A stretch of DNA of 32,672 nucleotides from Microscillaceae bacterium (GTDB lineage: Bacteria > Bacteroidota > Bacteroidia > Cytophagales > Microscillaceae), in NCBI GenBank assembly GCA_025455045.1, contig JALONJ010000013.1, forward strand, positions 1 to 32,672, read 5' to 3'. This document shows, piece after piece, positions 1 to 27,842 of the stretch (the first letter of the stretch is position 1; each line of letters opens with the position of its first letter). The notes beneath the pieces were generated by a model, which saw nothing but the letters and a program-made list of their open reading frames with translations, had not been told where the DNA came from and did no database searches. Position numbers and translations under genes: made by a program.

Positions 1-66
1 TCGGCAAAGTTTGAAACTTTGCCGAAGTTGAAAAGGCAAGGCGCAGTTAATTCTTACATAATATCC
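1..66. repeat. 66-bp direct repeat, copy 1, with apical hairpin
   Basis: This 66-bp stretch recurs at 285-350 with three mismatches. Its first 25 bases form a hairpin with 12-bp arms (TCGGCAAAGTTT and complement) and a one-base loop. The window cuts the left side, so the element may extend further. A hairpin of the same kind without the downstream sequence is at 893-920. Confidence 0.85.
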
Positions 67-69
67 TCC

Positions 70-97
70 ATCTGCTAGGTTTCAAAACCTAGCAGAT
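70..97. repeat. Perfect hairpin with GTTT-CA-AAAC apex
   Basis: Two perfect 13-bp arms (70-82 and 85-97) surround a two-base loop. A further hairpin, GCGCGTTT-CC-AAACGCGC, follows at about 105-122. Both share the GTTT...AAAC apex with the hairpins at 1, 285 and 893 and with the array at 17586, but their stems differ. There is no T-run, so this is not an intrinsic terminator. Confidence 0.8.
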
Positions 98-154
98 TTT
101 ACTTGCGCGTTTCCAAACGCGCCTAGCGCGAACATAAGCAGGCATAGAATACAG

Positions 155-181
155 ATAAATACTTGATAATCAAACACTTAT
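155..181. repeat. TGATWATCA palindrome, copy 1
   Basis: Core TGATAATCA at 164-172. Left arm ATAAATACT and right arm AACACTTAT are largely complementary. It abuts the terminator at 186-211. Confidence 0.85.
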
Positions 182-185
182 AAAA

Positions 186-215
186 AAACCAGCAGTACGA
201 ACTGCTGGTTTTTTG
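186..215. terminator. Bidirectional intrinsic terminator
   Basis: A perfect 10-bp stem AAACCAGCAG / CTGCTGGTTT (186-195, 202-211) has a 6-base loop, a T-run on the + side and an A-run before it. It can therefore stop transcription on either strand. It fits the end of a + strand gene left of the window and the downstream side of the - strand gene at 361-828. Confidence 0.85.
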
Positions 216-231
216 TTTTCAGATAAAGTAT

Positions 232-258
232 ATAAATAGTTGATAATCAATTAGTTAC
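232..258. repeat. TGATWATCA palindrome, copy 2
   Basis: Core TGATAATCA at 241-249. Arms ATAAATAGT and ATTAGTTAC. Confidence 0.85.
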
Positions 259-284
259 ATCTTAATTAGATACTCGGTTTAACT

Positions 285-350
285 TCGGCAAAGTTTAAAA
301 CTCTGCCGAAGTTGAAAAGGCAAGGCGCAGTTAATTCTTACATAATACCC
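285..350. repeat. 66-bp direct repeat, copy 2
   Basis: Second copy of the sequence at 1-66, with mismatches at relative positions 13, 19 and 64. Its right end forms the left arm of the palindrome at 342-368. Copy 1 is not followed by that palindrome. Confidence 0.85.
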
Positions 351-6595: not shown

Positions 6596-7696
6596 ATGTA
6601 CGAAAAACTGAATTTTCAAATTTTGGGCAAAACCGCCCAAGTTCTTGAGGTCAATCTTGAGCCGGATAAAACCATCATAGCCGATGGTGGCGCATTGTTG
6701 TATTTAGATGAGGAAATTCAGTTTGTCTTGCGCGATGATGATGCCCATACCGAGGTACACGAAGAACTCGAAGAAGAAGAAGCCGAACCAGAACCTGACT
6801 TGGGCGATTTTGAACCCGAAATTACTTGGCAAAAACCTCATAACTCGGCTTTTGACCACGTATTTGCCGAACCTCCCAGCAAGGACGAAGACGAAGAAAA
6901 AAATGCCGGATTGCTCGAGAAGCTCTGGTCGGCAACCAAAAAAACCATCGGAAAATATACCAAATTTGGCGAAAAAAAGGAAGCCGAACCCGAAGAAGAA
7001 CCCGCCAATGACTTTTTTAGCGATTTTAAAAATAAACCCGCGCCCGAAGAATCCGAACCTACCCCCAAAGTAGAAAAAGCCGGCAAAACTTTCTCTTGGT
7101 ATTTGACTCACTTTACCAACGAGAGCGATTATATCCGCAAAGTAGCCTTTACGACTGCAACCGCCGGAAGCATCGTAAGTATTGACTTGACCGAAACCTT
7201 TGAAAATGAAGTGATTATCCAAACCGGCACTTTTTTATGCGCCCGCAAAGGCACGATTTTAGAAACTTTTGCCGATACCGGGGTCAGTGTAAATTTTTTG
7301 AAGGAAAAATTTTTCAAATTAGACCGGCTTTCGGGCAAAGATTTTATCTTTTTGAAAGCCGAAGGCGATGTCATTGAAAAAGAACTGGAAAATGATGCCA
7401 TTCGAGTCAATCTTTTTTCCTTGGTTGCCTTCGAGTCATCTTTGGATTTAGATACCAAAAACCTCAAATACGTCCAATCAATGAATTATGAAGACGATGC
7501 AATGTTTGCCACTTTGCAAGGTACCGGCAGATATTGGGTGCAAACTGCCAATATTCAACACTTGGTCTATCGCATTTCGCCGTTTATTTTTGAACCTTCA
7601 GATAGCTTTGAACCGGCTACACCTGTAGTCGAGAAACCAAACTCTAAATCAGCTTCAGAATCCGATTTGGATTTACTAGCCGGTTTAGATGAATAA
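6596..7696 (+). CDS. AIM24/TIGR00266-family protein with acidic insertion
   Basis: The two ends fit the AIM24 (formerly DUF124) beta-sandwich family. The N-terminus is YEKLNFQILGKTAQVLEVNLEP...IIADGGALLYLDEEIQF. The C-terminal part has SGKDFIFLKAEGDVIEKEL, LVAFESSLDLD, and FATLQGTGRYWVQT. Between about residues 47 and 165 sits a low-complexity stretch rich in Glu, Asp and Pro, with a short basic helix (EKLWSATKKTIGKYTKFGEKK), where relatives normally have a short glycine-rich linker. The final 35 residues are another acidic, serine-rich tail. Bacterial AIM24 function is not settled; the yeast homologue is mitochondrial. No signal peptide is seen, so it is probably cytoplasmic. At 366 residues it is longer than typical bacterial members (about 230-270). 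Confidence 0.82.
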   Translation: MYEKLNFQILGKTAQVLEVNLEPDKTIIADGGALLYLDEEIQFVLRDDDAHTEVHEELEEEEAEPEPDLGDFEPEITWQKPHNSAFDHVFAEPPSKDEDEEKNAGLLEKLWSATKKTIGKYTKFGEKKEAEPEEEPANDFFSDFKNKPAPEESEPTPKVEKAGKTFSWYLTHFTNESDYIRKVAFTTATAGSIVSIDLTETFENEVIIQTGTFLCARKGTILETFADTGVSVNFLKEKFFKLDRLSGKDFIFLKAEGDVIEKELENDAIRVNLFSLVAFESSLDLDTKNLKYVQSMNYEDDAMFATLQGTGRYWVQTANIQHLVYRISPFIFEPSDSFEPATPVVEKPNSKSASESDLDLLAGLDE

Positions 7697-17913: not shown

Positions 17914-19218
17914 TTATCTAAAAAACAAATTTAAAATGTCATTGCCCAATACCAGCACCATCAAGGTCAAGAGAATGACTACTCCTACCATTTGCGAGCG
18001 TTCCAAAAACTTGTCGGAGGGTTTGCGCCCCGAAATAATTTCATACATCAAAAACATTACGTGTCCACCGTCGAGAGCCGGAATTGGTAAGAAATTCAAA
18101 AACGCCAACCACATAGACAAAATACCCGTAAATCGCCAGAAAAACTCCCAATCCCAAGTAGTGGGGAAAAATTGGGCAATGCCAATCGGACCACTGACCG
18201 ATTTTGCTGAGACTTCACCCCGAAACAATTTACCAAAACCCATCAAATTGAGGTACAATGATTCAAAAGCTCGGTCGGTACCACGGACGATTGATTCCGC
18301 AAAACCAAATTTTTCGTAAGAAGGCTTTAATTCTATTTTGGGCAAGAAGCCAAATTTGCCGTTTTCATCGGTTTTGGCTTTGATATTGAGGTTTTTGCCT
18401 TCGCGCTCAATTTTGAGGGTAACTTCTTTGTTTTTAAATTTGTCTTGTTCTGCCTGAAATTCGTGAAAAAATTGAATCGGTTTGTCGTTGAACGCCACAA
18501 TTTTGTCACCAACTTGCAATCCGGCGGCGGCGGCGGGCATTCCTTTTTGTACTTTACCAATACTAAAAGGATAAATAGGCTCAATAAATAGCTCTTTTTT
18601 GCCCGAAAGCCTTTCAATCAAATCATTAGGAATTTTGACATCTATTGTTTTGCCTTCGCGCGCAATGGTAAAATAAGAGTTACTCTCAATCAGAGCCAAA
18701 CGATGGTCTTCAAATTTATTGTAAGGTTTACCGTTGATTTTCAGGAGTTTGTCGCCGGTTTTTAGCCCGATTTCTTGCGCCATTGGGTAGGCTACAATGC
18801 CGTATTTGTTTACTTCATTTGCCGGTAGGTAGCTTTCACCATAAATAAATACCAAGCCCACAAACATCATAATACCCGTAATGACATTGATGGTAATGCC
18901 CCCCACCATTACAATCAGGCGTTGCCAAGCGGGTTTGGCGCGAAACTCCCAAGGCTCGGGTTCGTTTTGGAGGTGTTTGGTATCAAATGATTCATCAATC
19001 ATTCCCGATATTTTGACAAAACCGCCCAAGGGAATTGCCCCCAGCGAATATTCGGTTTCGCGCCACGTAAAACCAAAAATTTTGGGCGGAAAACCAATCG
19101 AGTATTTTTCGACTCTCATTCCAAATACTTTGGCGGCAACCAAATGCCCCAACTCGTGCAATCCTACAATTATGGACAAGCAAAGCAGCAATTGTCCAAC
19201 CATTACAAGTGTTCCCAT
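17914..19218 (-). CDS. rseP: RseP-like site-2 zinc metalloprotease (M50B)
   Basis: This inner-membrane protease cuts anti-sigma factors or remnant signal peptides within the membrane. The zinc site is H21-E-L-G-H25 in the first segment, with the third ligand D383 in NFLPIPALDGGH. Two PDZ-like regions lie between, about 130-205 (AQEIGLKTGDKLLKINGK) and 215-290 (AAAAGLQVGDKIVAFNDKP). The four expected membrane segments are present. At 434 residues it is full length. The start at 19218 gives the correct short N-terminal segment, and a palindrome lies just upstream. In many Bacteroidota it sits next to dxr; here three accessory genes separate them. Confidence 0.94.
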   Translation of the reverse strand: MGTLVMVGQLLLCLSIIVGLHELGHLVAAKVFGMRVEKYSIGFPPKIFGFTWRETEYSLGAIPLGGFVKISGMIDESFDTKHLQNEPEPWEFRAKPAWQRLIVMVGGITINVITGIMMFVGLVFIYGESYLPANEVNKYGIVAYPMAQEIGLKTGDKLLKINGKPYNKFEDHRLALIESNSYFTIAREGKTIDVKIPNDLIERLSGKKELFIEPIYPFSIGKVQKGMPAAAAGLQVGDKIVAFNDKPIQFFHEFQAEQDKFKNKEVTLKIEREGKNLNIKAKTDENGKFGFLPKIELKPSYEKFGFAESIVRGTDRAFESLYLNLMGFGKLFRGEVSAKSVSGPIGIAQFFPTTWDWEFFWRFTGILSMWLAFLNFLPIPALDGGHVMFLMYEIISGRKPSDKFLERSQMVGVVILLTLMVLVLGNDILNLFFR

Positions 19219-19241
19219 ATTATTGATTATCAGCTACTTAC
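19215..19241. repeat. TGATWATCA palindrome, copy 18
   Basis: Core TGATTATCA at 19224-19232, five bases from the rseP start codon. The right arm GCTACTTAC is good; the left arm runs into the start codon and is poor. Confidence 0.7.
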
Positions 19242-19380
19242 GTACAAATAGTGTAGCTTTTGGATTTCTAGTTTTAAATTTTTAAATAATAATTTTATCT
19301 ACCTACAAATTAAAATAAATAAGGCATAAAAATGTAAATATGTGGTTGTTAGTGTTTTACAAATTTCATTTTCAAAAAAT

Positions 19381-19407
19381 ATAAATCATTGGTTATCAAG
19401 CAGTTAT
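19381..19407. repeat. TGATWATCA palindrome, copy 19 (variant core)
   Basis: Core TGGTTATCA at 19390-19398. Arms ATAAATCAT and AGCAGTTAT. It lies on the downstream side of the three-gene TAC-like operon. Confidence 0.75.
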
Positions 19408-19457
19408 AAAAGTATTACCTCAGTTATCTACAAAATATAAATCAAAGCAATAACTAA

Positions 19458-19856
19458 TTAGGTATTACTTTTTTTGTTATACTCTTCAAAAAAATTGATT
19501 ACTGGAATCATTGCAGGTTGAAAACCAGCATTTAATGTGAAGTTAGCAATAAAAACCCGCAAAAATGGGTAGGCAATTGCTGGCGCATTTATATTTGGAT
19601 AGTTACTATTTTTAAAGTCATCTGTAATCGCTTCGGATGTTCGAAACCATGAAGAAAATGCTAGTTCAAGTACAAACTCTTTGGGATGATATATTTGGGC
19701 TTGAAAAATAATAGAAAATATATGTACATCTTTTGAGTCATAACTTATGGCATAATCCAAGTTAAATATTTTATGTTCTCCTTTGACATTTTGCTCAATC
19801 CTATCAAATGTTAATTTAAGGACTTGTGATTGTAATAAATTAATTTTTACACTCAT
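19458..19856 (-). CDS. SecB-like chaperone of a TAC module
   Basis: The 132-residue protein ends with a stretch strongly recalling SecB: NAPAIAYPFLR (90-100), FIANFTLNAGFQPAMIPVINF (102-122). In SecB the matching part reads YPFLRE...T..AGFPPL.LPPVNF. The N-terminal half (residues 8-70) has the alternating pattern of the SecB beta-sheet (LKLTFDRIEQNV, FSIIFQAQIYHPKEFVLELAF). SecB proteins are cytoplasmic tetrameric holdases. Bacteroidota mostly lack housekeeping SecB, so a SecB-like gene last in a toxin-antitoxin operon points to a dedicated antitoxin chaperone. It starts 12 bases after the 99-residue gene. No neighbour belongs to the Sec pathway. Function as chaperone in a TAC system is inferred from order and family. 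Confidence 0.75.
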   Translation of the reverse strand: MSVKINLLQSQVLKLTFDRIEQNVKGEHKIFNLDYAISYDSKDVHIFSIIFQAQIYHPKEFVLELAFSSWFRTSEAITDDFKNSNYPNINAPAIAYPFLRVFIANFTLNAGFQPAMIPVINFFEEYNKKSNT

Positions 19857-19868
19857 AGTTAAATGAAT

Positions 19869-20168
19869 TTAAGCACCATAACTTATTAAATTCTCGTGGA
19901 CATTTCCAAAATCTGCATTTGGAGCAATCAACAAGGGAGTAAGCGAGATAAATATATCTGTTTTATTCGTTTGATAATCCACATATCCCTCGACTACAGA
20001 TAGGGGCTTTTCTTGAAAATATAACTCCACTTTTGAAACGTGCAAAATGTAATCATCATTCAAATCTTCAAATTCATAGCCTAATTCTTCAAATTGGGTA
20101 ATAATTTCTTGGACTGATACTTTGTCAAAATAAGCATCTATTTTATCTTTCACATCTATAAGTTTCAT
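19869..20168 (-). CDS. Putative antitoxin, middle gene of the TAC-like operon
   Basis: I do not recognise this 99-residue protein. It is acidic in the first 60 residues, with a helical start (VKDKIDAYFDKVSVQEIITQF). The C-terminus is hydrophobic (DIFISLTPLLIAPNADFGNV, then HENLISYGA). Position between an ADP-ribosyltransferase-like gene (2-base gap) and a SecB-like gene (12-base gap) suggests it is the antitoxin. In known TAC systems the antitoxin carries a C-terminal aggregation-prone segment that the chaperone binds, and the exposed-looking tail here could play that part. It has no helix-turn-helix or other DNA-binding motif that I can see, so autoregulation by this protein is not evident. 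It could instead be an unrelated small partner. Confidence 0.6.
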   Translation of the reverse strand: MKLIDVKDKIDAYFDKVSVQEIITQFEELGYEFEDLNDDYILHVSKVELYFQEKPLSVVEGYVDYQTNKTDIFISLTPLLIAPNADFGNVHENLISYGA

Positions 20169-20170
20169 AA

Positions 20171-20746
20171 TTATACTTCCCCTTCCTTTTCTATATTTAT
20201 GGTTATTGTATTTATATTGATTTTAGGGCTATTAACAGCAATTATAGTACAATTAGGAGTTCTAAAATTAATATCATAGATTCTTTCGGGTGTAAATTTA
20301 ATGTAAAAGTTGCCTTTAACTACCTCGATATCTAAAAAATTGTTCTTTCTTGCCAGATTAATGATATGCCCATCATTAAATTGTCCTATTTTTAAACGTT
20401 TTTTTCCTGATACAATTTTCTCAACAAATTTATTTCGCAAATAATTAAAAATTTCTATCCCTTCAAGAGTCGTCAAATCCAAGAATTTAGATTTATCAAC
20501 TACTATTTCTGCCTTGATAACAACATAGGATTGGTAAGTATAGTTTCCAGTATTATTGTTCCAAGCTGAAGCTTTTGCCCAATTTTCTGCATTTTGTACT
20601 GGGTCTGATACTCCTTCAACAAAAAAATAGATTCCATCTCCCAACCAATGCACATCGCCCAAACTTGGATTAAAATTATTAGTCTTTATGTCTTTGAAAT
20701 GCAAGCTATTTGTACCGTGAAATCCTATAATAGTAATCAAGCTCAT
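20171..20746 (-). CDS. ADP-ribosyltransferase-like toxin
   Basis: The N-terminus carries motifs of a PARP/DUF3990-like ADP-ribosyltransferase: GFHGTN with H10, and WLGDGIYFF with Y40, followed by AENWAKA (53-59), which resembles the A..WA helix of the family. The H and Y would hold NAD+; the third catalytic residue is not certain, with candidates E80 and E141. The end, RTPNCTIIAVNSP (162-174), resembles the conserved terminal strand of long relatives. At 191 residues it is a stand-alone domain with no signal peptide. It is first in a three-gene unit with a small unknown protein and a SecB-like chaperone, so a toxin that modifies a cytoplasmic target is likely. CmdT, which ADP-ribosylates mRNA, is the closest system analogue by architecture. 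Target is inferred, not shown. Confidence 0.68.
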   Translation of the reverse strand: MSLITIIGFHGTNSLHFKDIKTNNFNPSLGDVHWLGDGIYFFVEGVSDPVQNAENWAKASAWNNNTGNYTYQSYVVIKAEIVVDKSKFLDLTTLEGIEIFNYLRNKFVEKIVSGKKRLKIGQFNDGHIINLARKNNFLDIEVVKGNFYIKFTPERIYDINFRTPNCTIIAVNSPKININTITINIEKEGEV

Positions 20747-20829
20747 TATATTTACAATATTGGTAGATAAATACTATAAAAGTGTAATTTGCAAGGTAGT
20801 TAAAATTATAATTCAGCGCGAATATTTTT

Positions 20830-20856
20830 ATAAGTATTTGATAATCAATTAGTTAC
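20830..20856. repeat. TGATWATCA palindrome, copy 20, overlapping the dxr stop codon
   Basis: Core TGATAATCA at 20839-20847. Arms ATAAGTATT and ATTAGTTAC. The right arm contains the dxr stop (complement of 20853-20855). It lies on the upstream side of the TAC-like operon. Confidence 0.85.
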
Positions 20857-22016
20857 TGATAAACCATCGACTTCGCCAAAACCCGGGTCTCCTCATCAGT
20901 TTGGACGTAGTCTTCATAATTTGGATTTGCAATATAGGGCATTTTAGCCAGACAATTGGCAATGATGTCCGACATTTGCAAAAATTTAACTTTATCGTGC
21001 AAGAAATAATCCACCGCAATTTCATTGGCGGCGTTCAACACGCAGGGCATATTGCCACCGCGCGCCAGTGCCTCAAAAGCCAAGCCTAAATTGCGAAAAG
21101 TTTGTAAATCCGGCTTTTCGAAAGTCAAATTGGGATATTTCATAAAATCAAAACGCGGAAAATCTGAATGAATCCGTTGCGGATAAGCTATGGCGTATTG
21201 AATGGGCAGTTTCATATCGGGCAAGCCCATTTGCGCTTTCATCGAGCCATCTTCAAATTGTACCAAAGAATGAATGATGGATTGCGGATGCACTATCACC
21301 TCTACTTGCTCGGCGCGCAAGCCAAAAAGCCACTTTGCTTCAATCACTTCCAAACCTTTGTTCATCAACGAAGCCGAGTCAATGGTTATTTTAGCTCCCA
21401 TCGACCAGTTGGGGTGTTTGAGGGCTTGTTCTTTGCTAACTTGCTGTAAATCAGCCAGTTGCTTGCCGCGAAAAGGTCCGCCCGAAGCAGTTAAGATAAT
21501 TTTTTCAATCGGATTTTTTTCTTCCCCTACCAAGCATTGAAAGATTGCCGAGTGTTCGGAATCGACGGGAATGATTTTTACCTGATGTTTTTGGGCTAAA
21601 TTCATTATCAATTCTCCGGCAACGACCAGCGTTTCTTTATTTGCCAAAGCAATGTCTTTACCGGCTTCAATTGCCTTGATGGTGGGCAATAAACCACAAT
21701 AGCCCACTACGGCGGTCAAAACCAAGTCAATGGCATCGCTTTGAACTACTTCGGCGAGGGCGGCTTCAGAGCCAAATACCTGAATATCAAGGTCTTGCAA
21801 GGCTGATTTTACTCGGTCAAAGTTTTCAGGATTGGTAACTACCACCTGGCGCGGACGAAATCGGCGGCTTTGGGCAATCAATAAATCGGCATTGTGGCGG
21901 GCGGTGAGGACTTCGACCAAAAACTTATCGGGATTGGCGGCGATTACGTCTAGAGCTTGCGTGCCGATTGAGCCGGTAGAGCCTAAAATGGCGAGCCTTT
22001 TGTGGGGAAAATTCAT
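20853..22016 (-). CDS. dxr: 1-deoxy-D-xylulose 5-phosphate reductoisomerase
   Basis: It converts DXP to MEP with NADPH, the committed step of the non-mevalonate isoprenoid pathway. The NADPH-binding motif GSTGSIG lies at 12-18. Catalytic-domain signatures are clear: ALANKETLVVAGE (about 121-133), PVDSEHSAIFQ (about 150-160), TASGGPFRG (about 176-184), and the SMGAKITIDSASLMNKGLEVIEA stretch. The length of 387 fits the family. The start at 22016 is right for the N-terminal strand KRLAILGSTG. It is on the same strand as rseP, usually its neighbour, but three accessory genes lie between. A palindrome overlaps the stop codon. Confidence 0.96.
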   Translation of the reverse strand: MNFPHKRLAILGSTGSIGTQALDVIAANPDKFLVEVLTARHNADLLIAQSRRFRPRQVVVTNPENFDRVKSALQDLDIQVFGSEAALAEVVQSDAIDLVLTAVVGYCGLLPTIKAIEAGKDIALANKETLVVAGELIMNLAQKHQVKIIPVDSEHSAIFQCLVGEEKNPIEKIILTASGGPFRGKQLADLQQVSKEQALKHPNWSMGAKITIDSASLMNKGLEVIEAKWLFGLRAEQVEVIVHPQSIIHSLVQFEDGSMKAQMGLPDMKLPIQYAIAYPQRIHSDFPRFDFMKYPNLTFEKPDLQTFRNLGLAFEALARGGNMPCVLNAANEIAVDYFLHDKVKFLQMSDIIANCLAKMPYIANPNYEDYVQTDEETRVLAKSMVYQ

Positions 22017-22449: not shown

Positions 22450-22491
22450 AAGTCTAATTTCTAACTCCAAATTATCAATTTATAATTCTTA

Positions 22492-22562
22492 AGGTGCAGA
22501 CCGGACTCGAACCGATACCTTCTCTTTGCAAAAGAGCACTCTTCCAATTAAGCCACTGCACC
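22492..22562 (-). tRNA. tRNA-Cys (anticodon GCA)
   Basis: The minus strand folds as a cloverleaf: acceptor GGTGCAG with CTGCACC, D-arm with AATTGG, T-arm ATCGG-TTCGAGT-CCGGT. Position-counting places GCA at 34-36 in the loop TTGCAAA. The discriminator base is U, the hallmark of tRNA-Cys. An alternative reading of the loop (TTTGCAA) would give UGC for Ala, but the U discriminator and absence of a G3-U70 pair argue against it. The anticodon stem has one mismatch at 27-43. Length is 71 bases and CCA is not encoded. Confidence 0.85.
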
Positions 22563-22565
22563 TTA

Positions 22566-22638
22566 GGAAAGTGAGCGGGACTCGAACCCGCAACTCCCGA
22601 TTTGGTTTCGGTATCTTCCAATTGAAATATCACTTCCC
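22566..22638 (-). tRNA. tRNA-like sequence, possibly tRNA-Trp (CCA) or pseudo-tRNA
   Basis: It lies 3 bases upstream of tRNA-Cys on the same strand. A T-arm GCGGG-TTCGAGT-CCCGC is perfect and the ends pair over nine positions with one G-U. The middle hairpin CCGA-AACCAAA-TCGG would expose CCA, the Trp anticodon, but position 33 is A instead of the near-universal U. The cloverleaf also needs a missing base next to the D-stem. It is either an unusual tRNA or a decaying copy. Confidence 0.5.
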
Positions 22639-22748: not shown

Positions 22749-23057
22749 ATAAAATATTTACCCCATTGCTTGTGTCCTCACAAGCAACTATTGCAAAACT
22801 TTGAAAAACTGTTCTAAAATAAAATTGCCCCAAATGATTTTTACGACAAACATTTTTATTCAAACTTTTGTAAACTAAAATTGCTTACTTGTTAATCTAT
22901 TTGTCTATTTTGTGCGTTTTAGTCAATATGAAATCCAATTTCACAAAATAAAATGCGGATTTTAAAAATTTAAAGACAATGAAATTCGCAAAATTCAAAG
23001 TTTTAAGCTAATTTAATGTTTCCTTTCTGCCGGCTTATACAATTGTTTCAAAAAATT

Positions 23058-26000
23058 ATGTCGCAAAAATTAGGATTTTTTTCTCTTTGGTTTTTTTTAT
23101 CCACTATTGGCTTATTTGCTCAAACTCAAGTCGATAAATCCAATTATCAATTGTTGTGGGAAATTACCGGCAACGGACTCAGCAAACCTTCTTATGTATT
23201 TGGGTCTATGCACTTGCAAGACCCGCGTGTATTTGAGTTTAGCGATTCAATGTTTATCAAACTAGCGGAGTGTGAGGCATTTGCCACCGAAATTCAAATT
23301 GACAGCCTTATTGAGGGTTTGGATAAATATTATCTCAACCTCACCTTCGACGAATGGGCTGTCCACAAAAAAACTAAAAAACGCACCCGCAAAAGTTGGG
23401 GCTTTTTGGATTTGAAACCCCAGACCGGCGACAAACCCACTTTTTTAGATGCTTACTTGGCGGGTATTGCCAAACGAAGTGGCAAACTTATGTGTGGTTT
23501 AGAAAAATTGGACGATTATTTTCGTGGCACCATTGAAGACGGCGGCGAAGATTATGAATATACCGACCGTGAATCGCCCGAAATCAAAAAATTTATTGAG
23601 ACCTACCAAACCGGCAACCTCAGCGAAATTGCCAATATGACGATGGAACGCAACCCTTGGTACGATTCTATGATGGTCAAGCGAAATGTGATAATGGTTG
23701 CCAGTATGAAAGATATTATGGAAAAGCATACTTTGTTTGCCGTAGTTGGGGCGGCGCATTTGGTAGGCGAAACAGGTTTGGTTAGGTTATTTGAAAAAGA
23801 AGGCTTCAAAATGCGCGCTGTAAGCCCGATTTTTACCGGTCTTGCCGAAAAATTTCAACCTCAATATACACAACTCAACTGGTATGACATTCACAACCCC
23901 GAAGGCGGGTATAAAATCAGTATGCCCGGCAAACCTTTGCGCAGGTTTGAGGCTACCGGGGCATCTACGATTTGCATGTACCCCGATTTTACCAATGGCA
24001 TCCATTATTATTTTTATACCGTCGACTTTGCCGTAGCTCCGGCTGACTCGGGTAAAGTATTTGAACTGGTGGAAGATTCTTTGGTCAAACACTTGCGCGG
24101 CAAAGTAGTATCACGTAAGAACCTGACATTCAAAGACTTAGACGGGGTAGAACTGTTGATTCAACACGAAAACATTGAGTTGAGTTTTATCCGCGCCCGT
24201 TGGTTTTATCGGCACGGCAGAGTATATGCTTTGCATACCTCCTCGCTCAAAGAGCGTATAGATTCACCCGAAATTGACCGTTTTTTCAATAGTTTGGAGA
24301 TTATGAATCCTCCCAAAAACTTAGACTATTTGCAAGATGCTTTGGGTGCGTTTGTGGTCAAAACCTACACCAAACCTCAGTATCTAAGTACGCAATTGGT
24401 CAATCCGGCACGCCCCAATGACCGCCCTTGGGCAACTCACCAGTGGCTCAGTGTCAATCATACCCGCCAAGATTTGCATTATTTGTATTATCACGATATA
24501 CCTTCGGGTTATCGTACTTTCAATGATTCTACTTATTTGGAAGAATTTATCAATTATTTCAAAGAATATGCGGCAGTCGATTCGGTTTTATTGCCCAAGC
24601 GTTATGACCTCAAGGGCTATGGCGGACACGAAGTTAGTTTTATTCAAGATGATTTTTTAAAAATCCGCGCGCGCTATTTTTTGCGTGGCAATCGATTATA
24701 TACTTTGATTCAACAAACTACCGCGCCCGAATTTGATAATCAATTTATGGATTCGTTTCAGTTTGTGCCGTTTCAGGCAATGCAATTCAAAAAACAAATA
24801 CTCAAAGATAGCATTTGCTCGGTATTGTTGCCGACTAGCTTTGTAATACCGAAAGAAGACAAAAACTCATTGTGGAGTTTCAATGTTTTTAATAATTATT
24901 ATGACCAATTGGGCAGTATTGATAAATTTTTCAATTTTGAAGGTACTGATACAAGTACCGGCAGTGTTTTTAATTTGAAAATATCACATTATGGCAAATA
25001 CGCCGAATTTGCCAATACCGACAGTTTGTTTAATCAATGGATAGCGCGTCATAAATCCGATGCCGACAGCATCTTATCAGTACAAGATATAAAATATCAA
25101 GGTATGCAAGGCAAAGAAGTCTTATACCATCGCTATAATGTAAATACCATTTCTAAAAGTCGCTATTTTTTGCGTGACCACGCGCTGTATCAACTGACGG
25201 CTTCGTATGCGCAAGAATTGAAAACCGACCCACAATTGACTTATTTTTTCAATTCTTTGCAATTTCACAAACCCGAAATCAATCCGGTGAATTTGTTTAG
25301 CCCCAAAACCGAACTTTTATTCAGTGATTTGACTTCCAAAGATTCCACAGCTTGGGAAAAAGCCAAAGCCGCTTTGAGTTATTATGCTTTTGAAAAAAAG
25401 CATTTGCCTTACATTTACAAGGCTTTTGCCAATCAATATCCTGATGATAGTACCGAGTATGAAAGCACCAAAGCCAAACTTTTGGAAGTTTTGCGGCGCG
25501 TGCAAGACACAGCTACAGTCAAATTTTTGTATGATTTTTATGCCGAACACGCCACCGACCGCCAAAAAACCGATATTTTGATATTATTGGCGCAATTGAA
25601 AACTCAAGAGGCTTGGGATTCATTTTTTCAGTTAGCCAAAAGCAATCCACCCACCAAAATAGAAGACTATAATTTGAAATATAATTTTAGTGATACGCTT
25701 GCCCTTAGTCAAAAATATTTTAAAGATTGGCTGGAATTGGGCAAAAATGAGATTTTCCGCCGCACTTTTCTCAATCTTTCGGCAGATTTGGTCTATGATA
25801 GTACCTTTAACCAGAGTCTATTGAATGAAAACTTATCGGTATATCTCAATTTGGCTACCCAAGATATTGCCCGCTACCAACAAGCAAACTCCGGCAAAAA
25901 GTCCAAAAAAACCGAAGAATATGGGTATGAAGGTTATGATTCATATTCGGATTATTACTTTGAAGATTACCTGAGTTTGTTTCGCAATATGCCCGAATCG

Positions 26001-26621
26001 CCCGAAATCAATGCCGTTGTACGCCAAATAGCCAAAGTAGTGGTAGGCACTGAACCAACTAAACTAGCGGCTATCCGATTTTTGCTGGACAAAAAACAAA
26101 AAATTGAATCCAAATGGCTCAAAACCATTTTGGAAGATAATGCGCAATATTATAATTGCTTGCAAATGCTGCGCGATGCCGAACAATTGAGTTTGGTTCC
26201 GGCAAAGTATTTGAAACCTGCCCGCGTAGCCAAAGCCGCTTTACAAGAACAAATCAAAAACTATTACGGCTATCAAGACAGCGACATAACGCCTGTGAGT
26301 GAACGCATTATAGAATACAACGGCGAAAAAGTACGCGTTTTTACCTACAAATTTATCCTAAACAGGTACGATTATGCCGATGAGTACGAAGGCGAATCAG
26401 CTCATACTGATTCAAGCAAAACCCAAAAAGTCGATTATTATGTAGGTATCAGTGGTCCCTTTGCCATCAAAAATAACAAACGCACTTTCTCAGATGCGCT
26501 TACCGGCTTTACTTATGAAGCCGTGGAAGCGAATAAAATTGAAGAAGAAATCAATCGCTTGATAGAAGAAAAGACCAAGGTTTGGGAAGAAAATACCGAA
26601 GATGTAAAAGAAGAAGATTGA
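23058..26621 (+). CDS. Giant secreted TraB/GumN-domain protein
   Basis: I choose the ATG at 23058 (MSQKLGFFSLWFFL), which opens a signal peptide ending GLFAQ; the frame extends back to 23016 but those 14 codons lack signal-peptide character. Total 1187 residues. The N-terminal ~250 residues are a TraB/GumN (Tiki-like) domain: SYVFGSMHLQDPRVF, FATEIQIDSL and FAVVGAAHLVGETGL. The glutamate and histidines match the proposed metal-site positions. Next come about three tandem modules ending alike: DRFFNSLEIMNPP, QFMDSFQFVPF and TYFFNSLQFHKPE. Each also has a strand motif RARWFYRHGRVYAL, RARYFLRGNRLYTL or KSRYFLRDHALYQL. The last third is helical and HEAT-like. Bacterial TraB/GumN proteins usually have about 300 residues. 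The family may be metalloproteases, but function here is unknown. Confidence 0.85.
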   Translation: MSQKLGFFSLWFFLSTIGLFAQTQVDKSNYQLLWEITGNGLSKPSYVFGSMHLQDPRVFEFSDSMFIKLAECEAFATEIQIDSLIEGLDKYYLNLTFDEWAVHKKTKKRTRKSWGFLDLKPQTGDKPTFLDAYLAGIAKRSGKLMCGLEKLDDYFRGTIEDGGEDYEYTDRESPEIKKFIETYQTGNLSEIANMTMERNPWYDSMMVKRNVIMVASMKDIMEKHTLFAVVGAAHLVGETGLVRLFEKEGFKMRAVSPIFTGLAEKFQPQYTQLNWYDIHNPEGGYKISMPGKPLRRFEATGASTICMYPDFTNGIHYYFYTVDFAVAPADSGKVFELVEDSLVKHLRGKVVSRKNLTFKDLDGVELLIQHENIELSFIRARWFYRHGRVYALHTSSLKERIDSPEIDRFFNSLEIMNPPKNLDYLQDALGAFVVKTYTKPQYLSTQLVNPARPNDRPWATHQWLSVNHTRQDLHYLYYHDIPSGYRTFNDSTYLEEFINYFKEYAAVDSVLLPKRYDLKGYGGHEVSFIQDDFLKIRARYFLRGNRLYTLIQQTTAPEFDNQFMDSFQFVPFQAMQFKKQILKDSICSVLLPTSFVIPKEDKNSLWSFNVFNNYYDQLGSIDKFFNFEGTDTSTGSVFNLKISHYGKYAEFANTDSLFNQWIARHKSDADSILSVQDIKYQGMQGKEVLYHRYNVNTISKSRYFLRDHALYQLTASYAQELKTDPQLTYFFNSLQFHKPEINPVNLFSPKTELLFSDLTSKDSTAWEKAKAALSYYAFEKKHLPYIYKAFANQYPDDSTEYESTKAKLLEVLRRVQDTATVKFLYDFYAEHATDRQKTDILILLAQLKTQEAWDSFFQLAKSNPPTKIEDYNLKYNFSDTLALSQKYFKDWLELGKNEIFRRTFLNLSADLVYDSTFNQSLLNENLSVYLNLATQDIARYQQANSGKKSKKTEEYGYEGYDSYSDYYFEDYLSLFRNMPESPEINAVVRQIAKVVVGTEPTKLAAIRFLLDKKQKIESKWLKTILEDNAQYYNCLQMLRDAEQLSLVPAKYLKPARVAKAALQEQIKNYYGYQDSDITPVSERIIEYNGEKVRVFTYKFILNRYDYADEYEGESAHTDSSKTQKVDYYVGISGPFAIKNNKRTFSDALTGFTYEAVEANKIEEEINRLIEEKTKVWEENTEDVKEED

Positions 26622-26657
26622 TGAGACCTTAGAGATGAACAATTGAAAATGGTTTTT

Positions 26658-26694
26658 CAGCCTTTTTCAGGAATCAATTTCCTGAAAAGGGCTG
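26658..26694. repeat. 16-bp-stem hairpin downstream of the TraB/GumN gene
   Basis: Arms 26658-26673 and 26679-26694 (CAGCCTTTTTCAGGAA and complement, one G-U) surround the loop TCAAT. There is no T-run on either side. It lies between convergent genes and may be a 3'-end stabiliser or a repeat remnant. Confidence 0.6.
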
Positions 26695-26762
26695 AAGAAG
26701 CATTATTTCATTACCCAATTAAAGAAGAACATAACCGAACTTTAGACGAACTCAACAAACCA

Positions 26763-27842
26763 TTAACTTTGAGAATGGGGCAGGACAATTTGGGCGGCTT
26801 GTTTTTCAAATACTTGTTTGATTTCAGTGTTTTGCTGTTTTTGCCAATCGGGAAAAATAATTTGCAAAAGATTGCGACTTTGAATGAGCCTAATCCACGA
26901 AAAATTCCAGTAATCGGCAGTGGGTATGCCCAAAATATCGGCTACCTCGTTCCCCAACAAAAACCGTGTATATGCCGAAGCAAAACCTGCCGAAAATTGG
27001 GCTTGAGTTGCTTGAGTCAAAAAACCCAAAAGCGATTGGGTAAGCTCTTTTCCGGCTTGCGAGGTTTGAAATTCGCTTTGCGCTATCCGTTTATCCAGCC
27101 AAAAAGCCGATTTGCCGGTTTCGGGCAACCACTCAGGCTCTACCCCCGAAAGATAGCCAATGACATTCCAAAGATGCAAAAAATCTTCGGCGGCTTGGGC
27201 ATTGATACTGATACCAATCTTGCGCAAACCGCGCAGACAAATCCACGAAAAAGCTAAATTAGTTCCCGCCATATCCATTTGGTTGATGGGTGCGCCCCAA
27301 GCCGGATTCCATTGCCCACTTTTTAAAATTTGAAAACGAATATGGGCGTGCAAAAGCCTGACTTTGAGGATATTAGCCAAGCCCTTGCCCGATAAATCAA
27401 AAGCATCGGGTTGCATTACCTCCCAAACAAACTGCCCAGTTTCGCGGAGGCGATTTTCTATATCCTGCCGGATTCGTTGCGACAAATACAAGACTTGCGC
27501 TCCATTGGCTCCGGCATAGCAATAAGGCAATGACAAAAAGCCTAACATTGACATAATCATCTGGGTATGTTGGGCAAAGAGTTTTTGGGCATTTTGCATT
27601 CGCTCGGCATCAGCCCACGGTGGCAAGGATAAATGTTGGTGAAGGAAATCTTGAAAAAAATCAAGGCTTTGGAGTTGCTTGAGGTCGGTATTGGTTTGCA
27701 ACTGATTGATTTGGCGCAAAATGCTTGAAGATTCGGGGTGTTCTAGCAATTTTTGAAAAACTGAATCTGCCGCCGTATCGGATTGTTGGCGAGTATTTGC
27801 CCCAAAACTGGTATTAGATGGGTTAAAATGAGGTGATTTCAT
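26763..27842 (-). CDS. Oxygenase MpaB-family protein (DUF2236)
   Basis: The 359-residue protein belongs to the family that includes fungal MpaB and latex-clearing protein Lcp, haem-b dioxygenases. Recognisable parts are LPYCYAGANGAQVLYLSQRI (106-124), RETGQFVWEVMQ (133-144), VRLLHAHIRF (161-170) with H165 the likely proximal haem ligand, PINQMDMAGTNLAFS (about 185-200) and LLGNEVADILGIP near 305. All-helical composition fits. There is no signal peptide. The substrate is unknown; relatives act on isoprenoid-type double bonds. It is a single gene on the - strand, convergent with the TraB/GumN gene, with a repeat-filled gap upstream. The start at 27842 gives a polar 25-residue lead; no later Met is better. 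Confidence 0.83.
   Translation of the reverse strand: MKSPHFNPSNTSFGANTRQQSDTAADSVFQKLLEHPESSSILRQINQLQTNTDLKQLQSLDFFQDFLHQHLSLPPWADAERMQNAQKLFAQHTQMIMSMLGFLSLPYCYAGANGAQVLYLSQRIRQDIENRLRETGQFVWEVMQPDAFDLSGKGLANILKVRLLHAHIRFQILKSGQWNPAWGAPINQMDMAGTNLAFSWICLRGLRKIGISINAQAAEDFLHLWNVIGYLSGVEPEWLPETGKSAFWLDKRIAQSEFQTSQAGKELTQSLLGFLTQATQAQFSAGFASAYTRFLLGNEVADILGIPTADYWNFSWIRLIQSRNLLQIIFPDWQKQQNTEIKQVFEKQAAQIVLPHSQS

Follow-up and report, generated by a model that had tools for sequence, protein, structure and literature searches.

The locus and the parts of its protein

The stretch of DNA analysed here (the window) comprises 32,672 nucleotides of contig JALONJ010000013.1, from the Microscillaceae bacterium assembly GCA_025455045.1. 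On its forward strand lies an intact open reading frame (ORF) that starts with the ATG at position 23058 and encodes a protein of 1187 amino acids (aa); an alternative in-frame start, the ATG at 23016, would give 1201 aa. The protein begins with a signal-peptide-like segment, which is followed by a TraB/PrgY/GumN domain, three repeated modules (M1, M2 and M3), a long array of helices and a small C-terminal region (Table 1). The support for this architecture is good and extends to the order of the domains, the repetition of the modules, the M1 fold, the helical scaffold, the signal-peptide-like start, the conservation of residues and the three-module layout.

The sole Pfam family matched by the window protein is PF01963 (TraB/PrgY/GumN), with a score of 98.6 bits against a curated cut-off of 26.8, and all 26 long proteins that were scanned match the same family (E ≤ 0.1 each; best 3.6e-50). 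Across 59 long proteins, i.e. a 60-row alignment of the family minus one chimeric row (L124), positions H52, E78, D131, E149, Y183, R209, N210, G231, H234 and G237 are invariant. We take the motif set of the TraB family to be a GxxH, a Glu, an RN and a second GxxH, all of which the window protein has. In an AlphaFold model of the whole chain, run on the 60-row alignment (mean predicted local distance difference test score, pLDDT, 83), the G-S-M-H and G-A-A-H stretches are at the ends of strands 45–50 and 226–231, E78 and E149 end strands 74–79 and 144–149, respectively, and R209-N210 are inside helix 202–223; this is presumably the placement on strand ends and helix to be expected of the family. 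Retention of the catalytic-type residues in 59 of 59 proteins is consistent with an enzyme under selection. The window protein would be a putative Tiki-family hydrolase, for which family precedent would suggest cleavage of peptide bonds.

The region behind the TraB domain is made of repeats. Local alignment of the modules gave scores of 55 for M1–M2, 90 for M1–M3 and 61 for M2–M3, with shuffle means of 29–32 and none of 300 shuffles as high for any pair; among seven control pairs that include the tail or the helical region, at least 56 of 300 shuffles equalled the score for six, and 8 of 300 did so for one (M3–helical region). Profile–profile comparison, using 59- or 60-row alignments, linked all three modules to one another (E-values in Table 1), and the probability for the other 12 region pairs was below 1% throughout. 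No module copies beyond these three were detected in the window genome at E ≤ 1. At a threshold of 1e-6, matches to the modules occur in 13 of 118 genomes (own included), five of them in short frames of 162–216 codons, one with an internal stop. Three frames of 171–216 codons from other genomes of the phylum (L144, L145 and L146, in genomes G134, G150 and G160) resemble lone, stand-alone modules.

In the whole-chain model, each module starts with several strands and a helix, continues with four strands and ends in a second helix, and M3 adds a poorly predicted inserted helix. When M1 was folded alone, the closest solved chain was a cyanobacterial PsbP (2xb3; Z 14.4, root-mean-square deviation 3.2, 140 residues aligned); PA94, EagT6 and other PsbP chains were also among the nearest, and LpqN, SciW, Mog1 and DcrB followed further down the list. 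Foldseek gave a best E of 4.2e-6 for M1, with 40 chains at E ≤ 0.001. We conclude from the model that M1 is a Mog1p/PsbP-like fold. M2 and M3 would share this fold through their homology to M1, on which the fold call itself is based. A weak sequence link to PsbP points the same way: a module profile had three matches in the PDB at E ≤ 10, all of them PsbP (E 0.032–0.074), and Pfam PsbP (0.0015) and PsbP_2 (0.047) were each reached by one of 36 family modules. The window's own modules match none of Pfam PsbP, PsbP_2 and DcrB at E ≤ 10.

The model places 20 helices between residues 751 and 1070. Residues 748–1075 superpose on HEAT/ARM chains with Z-scores of 10.9–12.7, CAND1 being the best over 287 residues, where the structure-comparison tool warns that values below about 13 for helical repeats can be attained through common arrangement. 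Pfam HEAT_2 (PF13646) is matched at E ≤ 0.1 by 10 of the 26 long proteins (best 4.4e-5), the window protein not among them, and these matches in relatives lend support to the prediction that the helical third is a HEAT/ARM-like alpha-solenoid. No family was matched by the tail, residues 1071–1187. At the other end of the protein, a hydrophobic stretch is present in 57 of 60 family rows and a lipobox-like motif in 6 of 60, the window protein having none; both counts come from simple pattern matching and not from a signal-peptide predictor. The best reading of these patterns is that the window protein is exported, and would be periplasmic or secreted. NCBIfam gave no match to it at E ≤ 1; nor did PADLOC, and a defence-system reading was rejected. 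No PDB chain was found by sequence at E ≤ 1 with either the protein or a 7-row profile as query.

A first-pass annotation made from the letters of the sequence had proposed three repeated modules, and the self-comparisons bear this out clearly, with boundaries at about 272–742 replacing the 280–760 given there. The TraB domain that it placed at the N-terminus is supported by the profile hidden Markov model and by the order of secondary-structure elements. Its helical, HEAT-like third agrees with the model helices and their HEAT/ARM superposition, and is followed by a separate small tail of three strands and a terminal helix; its expectation of an extracytoplasmic protein with binding-type modules is in line with the signal-peptide-like start and the Mog1p/PsbP-like M1.

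Table 1 Features of the window gene and its product (pTM, predicted template modelling score)
Feature	Residues	Position	Strand	Basis or remark
Whole gene	1187 aa	23058..26621	+	stop codon inside coordinates
Signal-peptide-like N-terminus (...LFAQ), without lipobox	1-24	23058..23129	+	pattern test and model helix 3-20
TraB/PrgY/GumN domain	25-268	23130..23861	+	Pfam PF01963, 7.2e-28
Conserved TraB positions	H52, E78, D131, E149, R209, N210, GAAH 231-234	within 23130..23861	+	
Module M1	272-418	23871..24311	+	Mog1p/PsbP-like fold; folded alone, pLDDT 92, pTM 0.87
Module M2	421-576	24318..24785	+	hhalign E 3.1e-21 to M1; same strand/helix order in full model
Module M3	577-742	24786..25283	+	hhalign E 1.4e-16 to M1, 2e-16 to M2
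Alpha-solenoid (HEAT/ARM-like)	743-1070	25284..26267	+	20 model helices; Z 12.7 to CAND1
C-terminal small region	strands 1076-1136 (three), terminal helix 1158-1186	26268..26618	+	model

Distribution, conservation and neighbourhood of the long form

In a tblastn search at 1e-20, a match is present in 8 of the 98 genomes from the same order (own included), in every case within a frame of 1169–1240 codons. A profile search at 1e-30 extended the family to 73 of 395 genomes of the phylum (own included), mostly with short TraB proteins besides long forms. Defined as a frame of at least 1150 codons with a TraB start, the long form accounts for 21 frames in 19 of the 395 genomes; for one of these (G199) the profile search matched residues 9–299 only, the rest of the frame having been matched separately. 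A scan of named genomes confirmed 406 stretches, of which the best 80 were kept, a choice that favours long forms. The kept loci comprise 66 complete long ORFs (1127–1334 aa), three short TraB proteins, one TraB domain with a single module (L108, from Fluviicola) and ten loci cut by contig ends. All 66 complete long ORFs, the chimeric L124 included, have exactly three modules (domain E < 0.01), the count being made with a module profile built in part from 11 of these loci. Carriers include Chitinophagaceae, Saprospiraceae, Sphingobacteriaceae, Flavobacteriaceae and Rhodocytophagaceae, and identity to the window protein is as low as 14%. The presence of three modules in every case, across many families, suggests that the layout itself is maintained. 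A single-protein scan of named genomes for close relatives confirmed none.

Conservation is uneven along the chain. Mean identity over all pairs of the 59 long proteins is 38.7% for TraB, 28.6% for M1, 25.2% for the solenoid, 22.3% for M2, 20.9% for the tail and 18.7% for M3, and in a hand-picked sub-family of 24 rows M1 reaches 46% versus 51% for TraB. That M1 is the best conserved part after TraB in the all-pair mean fits a role beside the active site.

Partial forms also occur. L030 (468 aa) and L108 (412 aa) are a TraB domain with one module; L048 (2760–5048, minus strand, 762 aa) has two modules and the solenoid behind a signal-like start and lacks TraB, in a genome (G302) that has no other match at 1e-30; and L049 (426 aa, genome G203) is solenoid and tail alone. 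The existence of such natural pieces indicates that the parts are separable units.

On a 53-row tree of the TraB domain, 17 long rows form one sub-family (support 100/100) and the other long rows, including that of the window, are outside it. The tree requires two changes for the long form, which may have had a single origin. Parafilimonas terrae, Niastella vici and strain DXS each have one copy inside and one outside the long sub-family, which suggests an early duplication, or may alternatively reflect transfer. The window genome additionally encodes a separate short TraB protein of 306 aa (L002). In the chimeric relative L124 (548–4333, plus strand, and 3–338, minus strand, of one metagenome-assembled genome), a QueA-like start runs into the rest of a TraB protein and the TraB N-terminus is on the opposite strand; this may be an inversion across a divergent queA/traB pair, or a misassembly.

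Within the window, the gene has tRNA genes and dxr on one flank and an MpaB/Lcp-like gene on the opposite flank. All of these are minus-strand genes, so that its Pfam-bearing neighbours are on the strand opposite to its own. The next plus-strand ORF, at 26643–27257 (TTG start, 204 aa), overlaps a minus-strand gene and matches nothing in Pfam at E ≤ 1. Among the 80 kept loci, a queA-like gene is upstream on the opposite strand in 29, directly adjacent in 28, and 26 have an ABC-transporter-ATPase-like cluster, which in 23 cases is next or next-but-one downstream on the opposite strand; these labels were read by eye from sequence, from loci that are mostly Chitinophagaceae by record title.

Three further features of the window were noted. 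Upstream, at 17914–22016 on the minus strand, are genes for an RseP-like M50 protease that carries PDZ domains, for a SecB-like protein and for DXP reductoisomerase. Beside the tRNA-Ala(TGC) gene at 22491–22563, Rfam detects a second tRNA at 22567–22636 on the minus strand (33.2 bits, cut-off 29), with an anticodon that by eye is CCA (Trp-like) and a D-arm that seems degenerate; ARAGORN calls the Ala gene only. At 6596–7696 on the plus strand is a gene whose 366-aa product contains an AIM24 domain (Pfam 'Mitochondrial biogenesis AIM24', 4e-29).

A proposed function and its rivals

The explanation that we favour, though only tentatively and at somewhat less than even confidence, is that the gene encodes an exported TraB/Tiki-family hydrolase, most likely a protease, whose catalytic domain carries three Mog1p/PsbP-like domains and an alpha-solenoid as permanent attachments, with M1 aiding substrate selection and the rest docking. 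M1 would be a working partner of the catalytic domain, helping to choose or position the substrate, and M2, M3 and the solenoid would form a docking arm for a partner or an extended substrate. The substrate would probably be an envelope protein. We infer cleavage of peptide bonds because of the precedents of Tiki and RRSP, and substrate binding by the modules because of the uses of the Mog1p/PsbP fold in Eag chaperones and DcrB. Tiki cleaves Wnt proteins, reportedly in a metal-dependent manner, and RRSP cleaves Ras in a manner that is not metal-dependent (PMC6254334, PMC12329661); Eag chaperones interact with the transmembrane domains of effectors (PMC7773334), and DcrB is a membrane-anchored periplasmic Mog1p/PsbP protein (PMC7716261). 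Fold neighbours of M1 include, by entry title, EagT6 and SciW with N-terminal or transmembrane parts of effectors and immunity proteins of the type VI secretion system (T6SS) on toxins; such complexes suggest that the fold serves protein binding. The first-pass annotation had called the protein metalloprotease-like, which comes down to a family assignment; one solved Tiki-family endopeptidase is metal-independent (PMC6254334). A further point in favour of the proposed protease is that this endopeptidase loses its activity when its appended N lobe is deleted (PMC6254334).

Several points limit the proposed protease or weigh against it. The matches listed for the fold search with the whole model scarcely reach residues 25–268; the absence of Tiki-type and erythromycin-esterase-type chains from the 50 matches listed in each of two fold lists therefore does not bear on the TraB domain. 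The whole-chain pTM, which bears on the relative placement of the domains, is 0.66. Functions of the Mog1p/PsbP fold are diverse, so partners cannot be read from it. When the window protein itself is compared with the 58 others, M1 is at 18.6% identity and the solenoid at 21.4%, so that M1 does not lead outside TraB. None of six other genomes of the window's own family has a tblastn match at 1e-20, which indicates a patchy or fast-changing gene. Finally, operon or neighbour logic was rejected as a guide to function, there being no neighbour common to all relatives and the commonest cluster being found in 29 of 80 loci.

TraB/PrgY pheromone-shutdown proteins may act by binding or sequestering, and the window protein might likewise be an envelope scaffold or sequestering factor whose TraB domain binds rather than cuts, the modules and solenoid doing the main work. 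These (residues 272–1070) are two thirds of the protein, and pieces without TraB persist in the 762-aa L048 and the 426-aa L049. However, TraB is better conserved than any other part and its catalytic-type residues do not vary among the 59 long proteins, and we consider this explanation unlikely, if the most serious of the rivals.

It is quite unlikely that the TraB domain hydrolyses an ester or other non-peptide bond, in the manner of an erythromycin esterase, on an envelope lipid, glycan or small molecule. The Tiki superfamily does include esterases with a shared His/Glu site (PMC6254334), and we found no worked-out substrate of a bacterial TraB/GumN protein in the searched part of the open-licence PMC literature. 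However, Tiki and RRSP cleave proteins, and three modules of protein-binding type suit a protein substrate better.

A wider form of the protease explanation is very unlikely: a periplasmic protease of quality control or signalling throughout the Bacteroidota, whose modules would grip hydrophobic segments of envelope proteins in the manner of Eag chaperones and feed them to a Tiki-type site while the solenoid docks. If true, a protease and its own substrate chaperone would be united in one chain.

A role in the response to metal or envelope stress, with the His-containing site possibly acting on or with a metal, we regard as highly improbable. The TraB/GumN gene EAMY_RS22290 of Erwinia amylovora is upregulated together with cueO and copA under copper (log2 fold change 2.50–3.57, in all four treatments and both strains; PMC12542790). 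However, what it shares with the window protein is the TraB/GumN label, and a Pfam scan of 20 window ORFs revealed no copper-related family. That the domain string arose by accidental fusion or through an assembly artefact, without joint function, is scarcely credible. L124, with its QueA-like start, is truly chimeric, but all 66 complete relatives, which come from many separate assemblies, agree in order and module number, even at the lowest identities.

The proposed protease remains our preferred explanation. The long form, which is widespread and combines binding-type modules with an invariant set of active-site residues, offers concrete constructs (TraB, TraB with M1, the modules, the solenoid) with which to approach substrate and function.

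Comparison with known systems

TraB/GumN-type proteins range from bacteria to animals. The window protein shares with TraB/PrgY/GumN proteins of the Tiki superfamily the same N-terminal domain, with the H, E, RN and GxxH-type positions invariant. It differs in size from the 14 short TraB members analysed, 12 of which are 282–334 aa long and end after the domain (the other two are in frames of 406 and 617 aa), whereas in the window protein the domain is about one fifth of the chain. M1 is alike to the Mog1p/PsbP-like proteins (PsbP, CyanoP, DcrB/DUF1795, Eag chaperones, LpqN and Mog1), with Z-scores of about 10–14 over 111–142 residues, but the window protein has three such domains in tandem behind a hydrolase-type domain. 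No photosynthesis or T6SS family was matched by the 20 window ORFs that were scanned. The helix array at 748–1075 resembles HEAT/ARM solenoids, although no HEAT family of Pfam is matched by the window protein.

RRSP, a MARTX domain of Vibrio vulnificus and a solved Tiki-family endopeptidase, is comparable in having a Tiki-type catalytic domain with an appended lobe, on which its activity depends (PMC6254334). In RRSP, however, the extra part is an N-terminal lobe for membrane localisation, and the protein is a host-directed effector. The combination found here had been termed unfamiliar in the first-pass annotation. This holds for the literature, since no description of TraB followed by three modules and a solenoid was found among the matches listed in the open-licence PMC literature; it does not hold for the genomes, where the architecture is common in Bacteroidota. 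The parts of the protein are each of a known kind, and their fixed combination is widespread in Bacteroidota.

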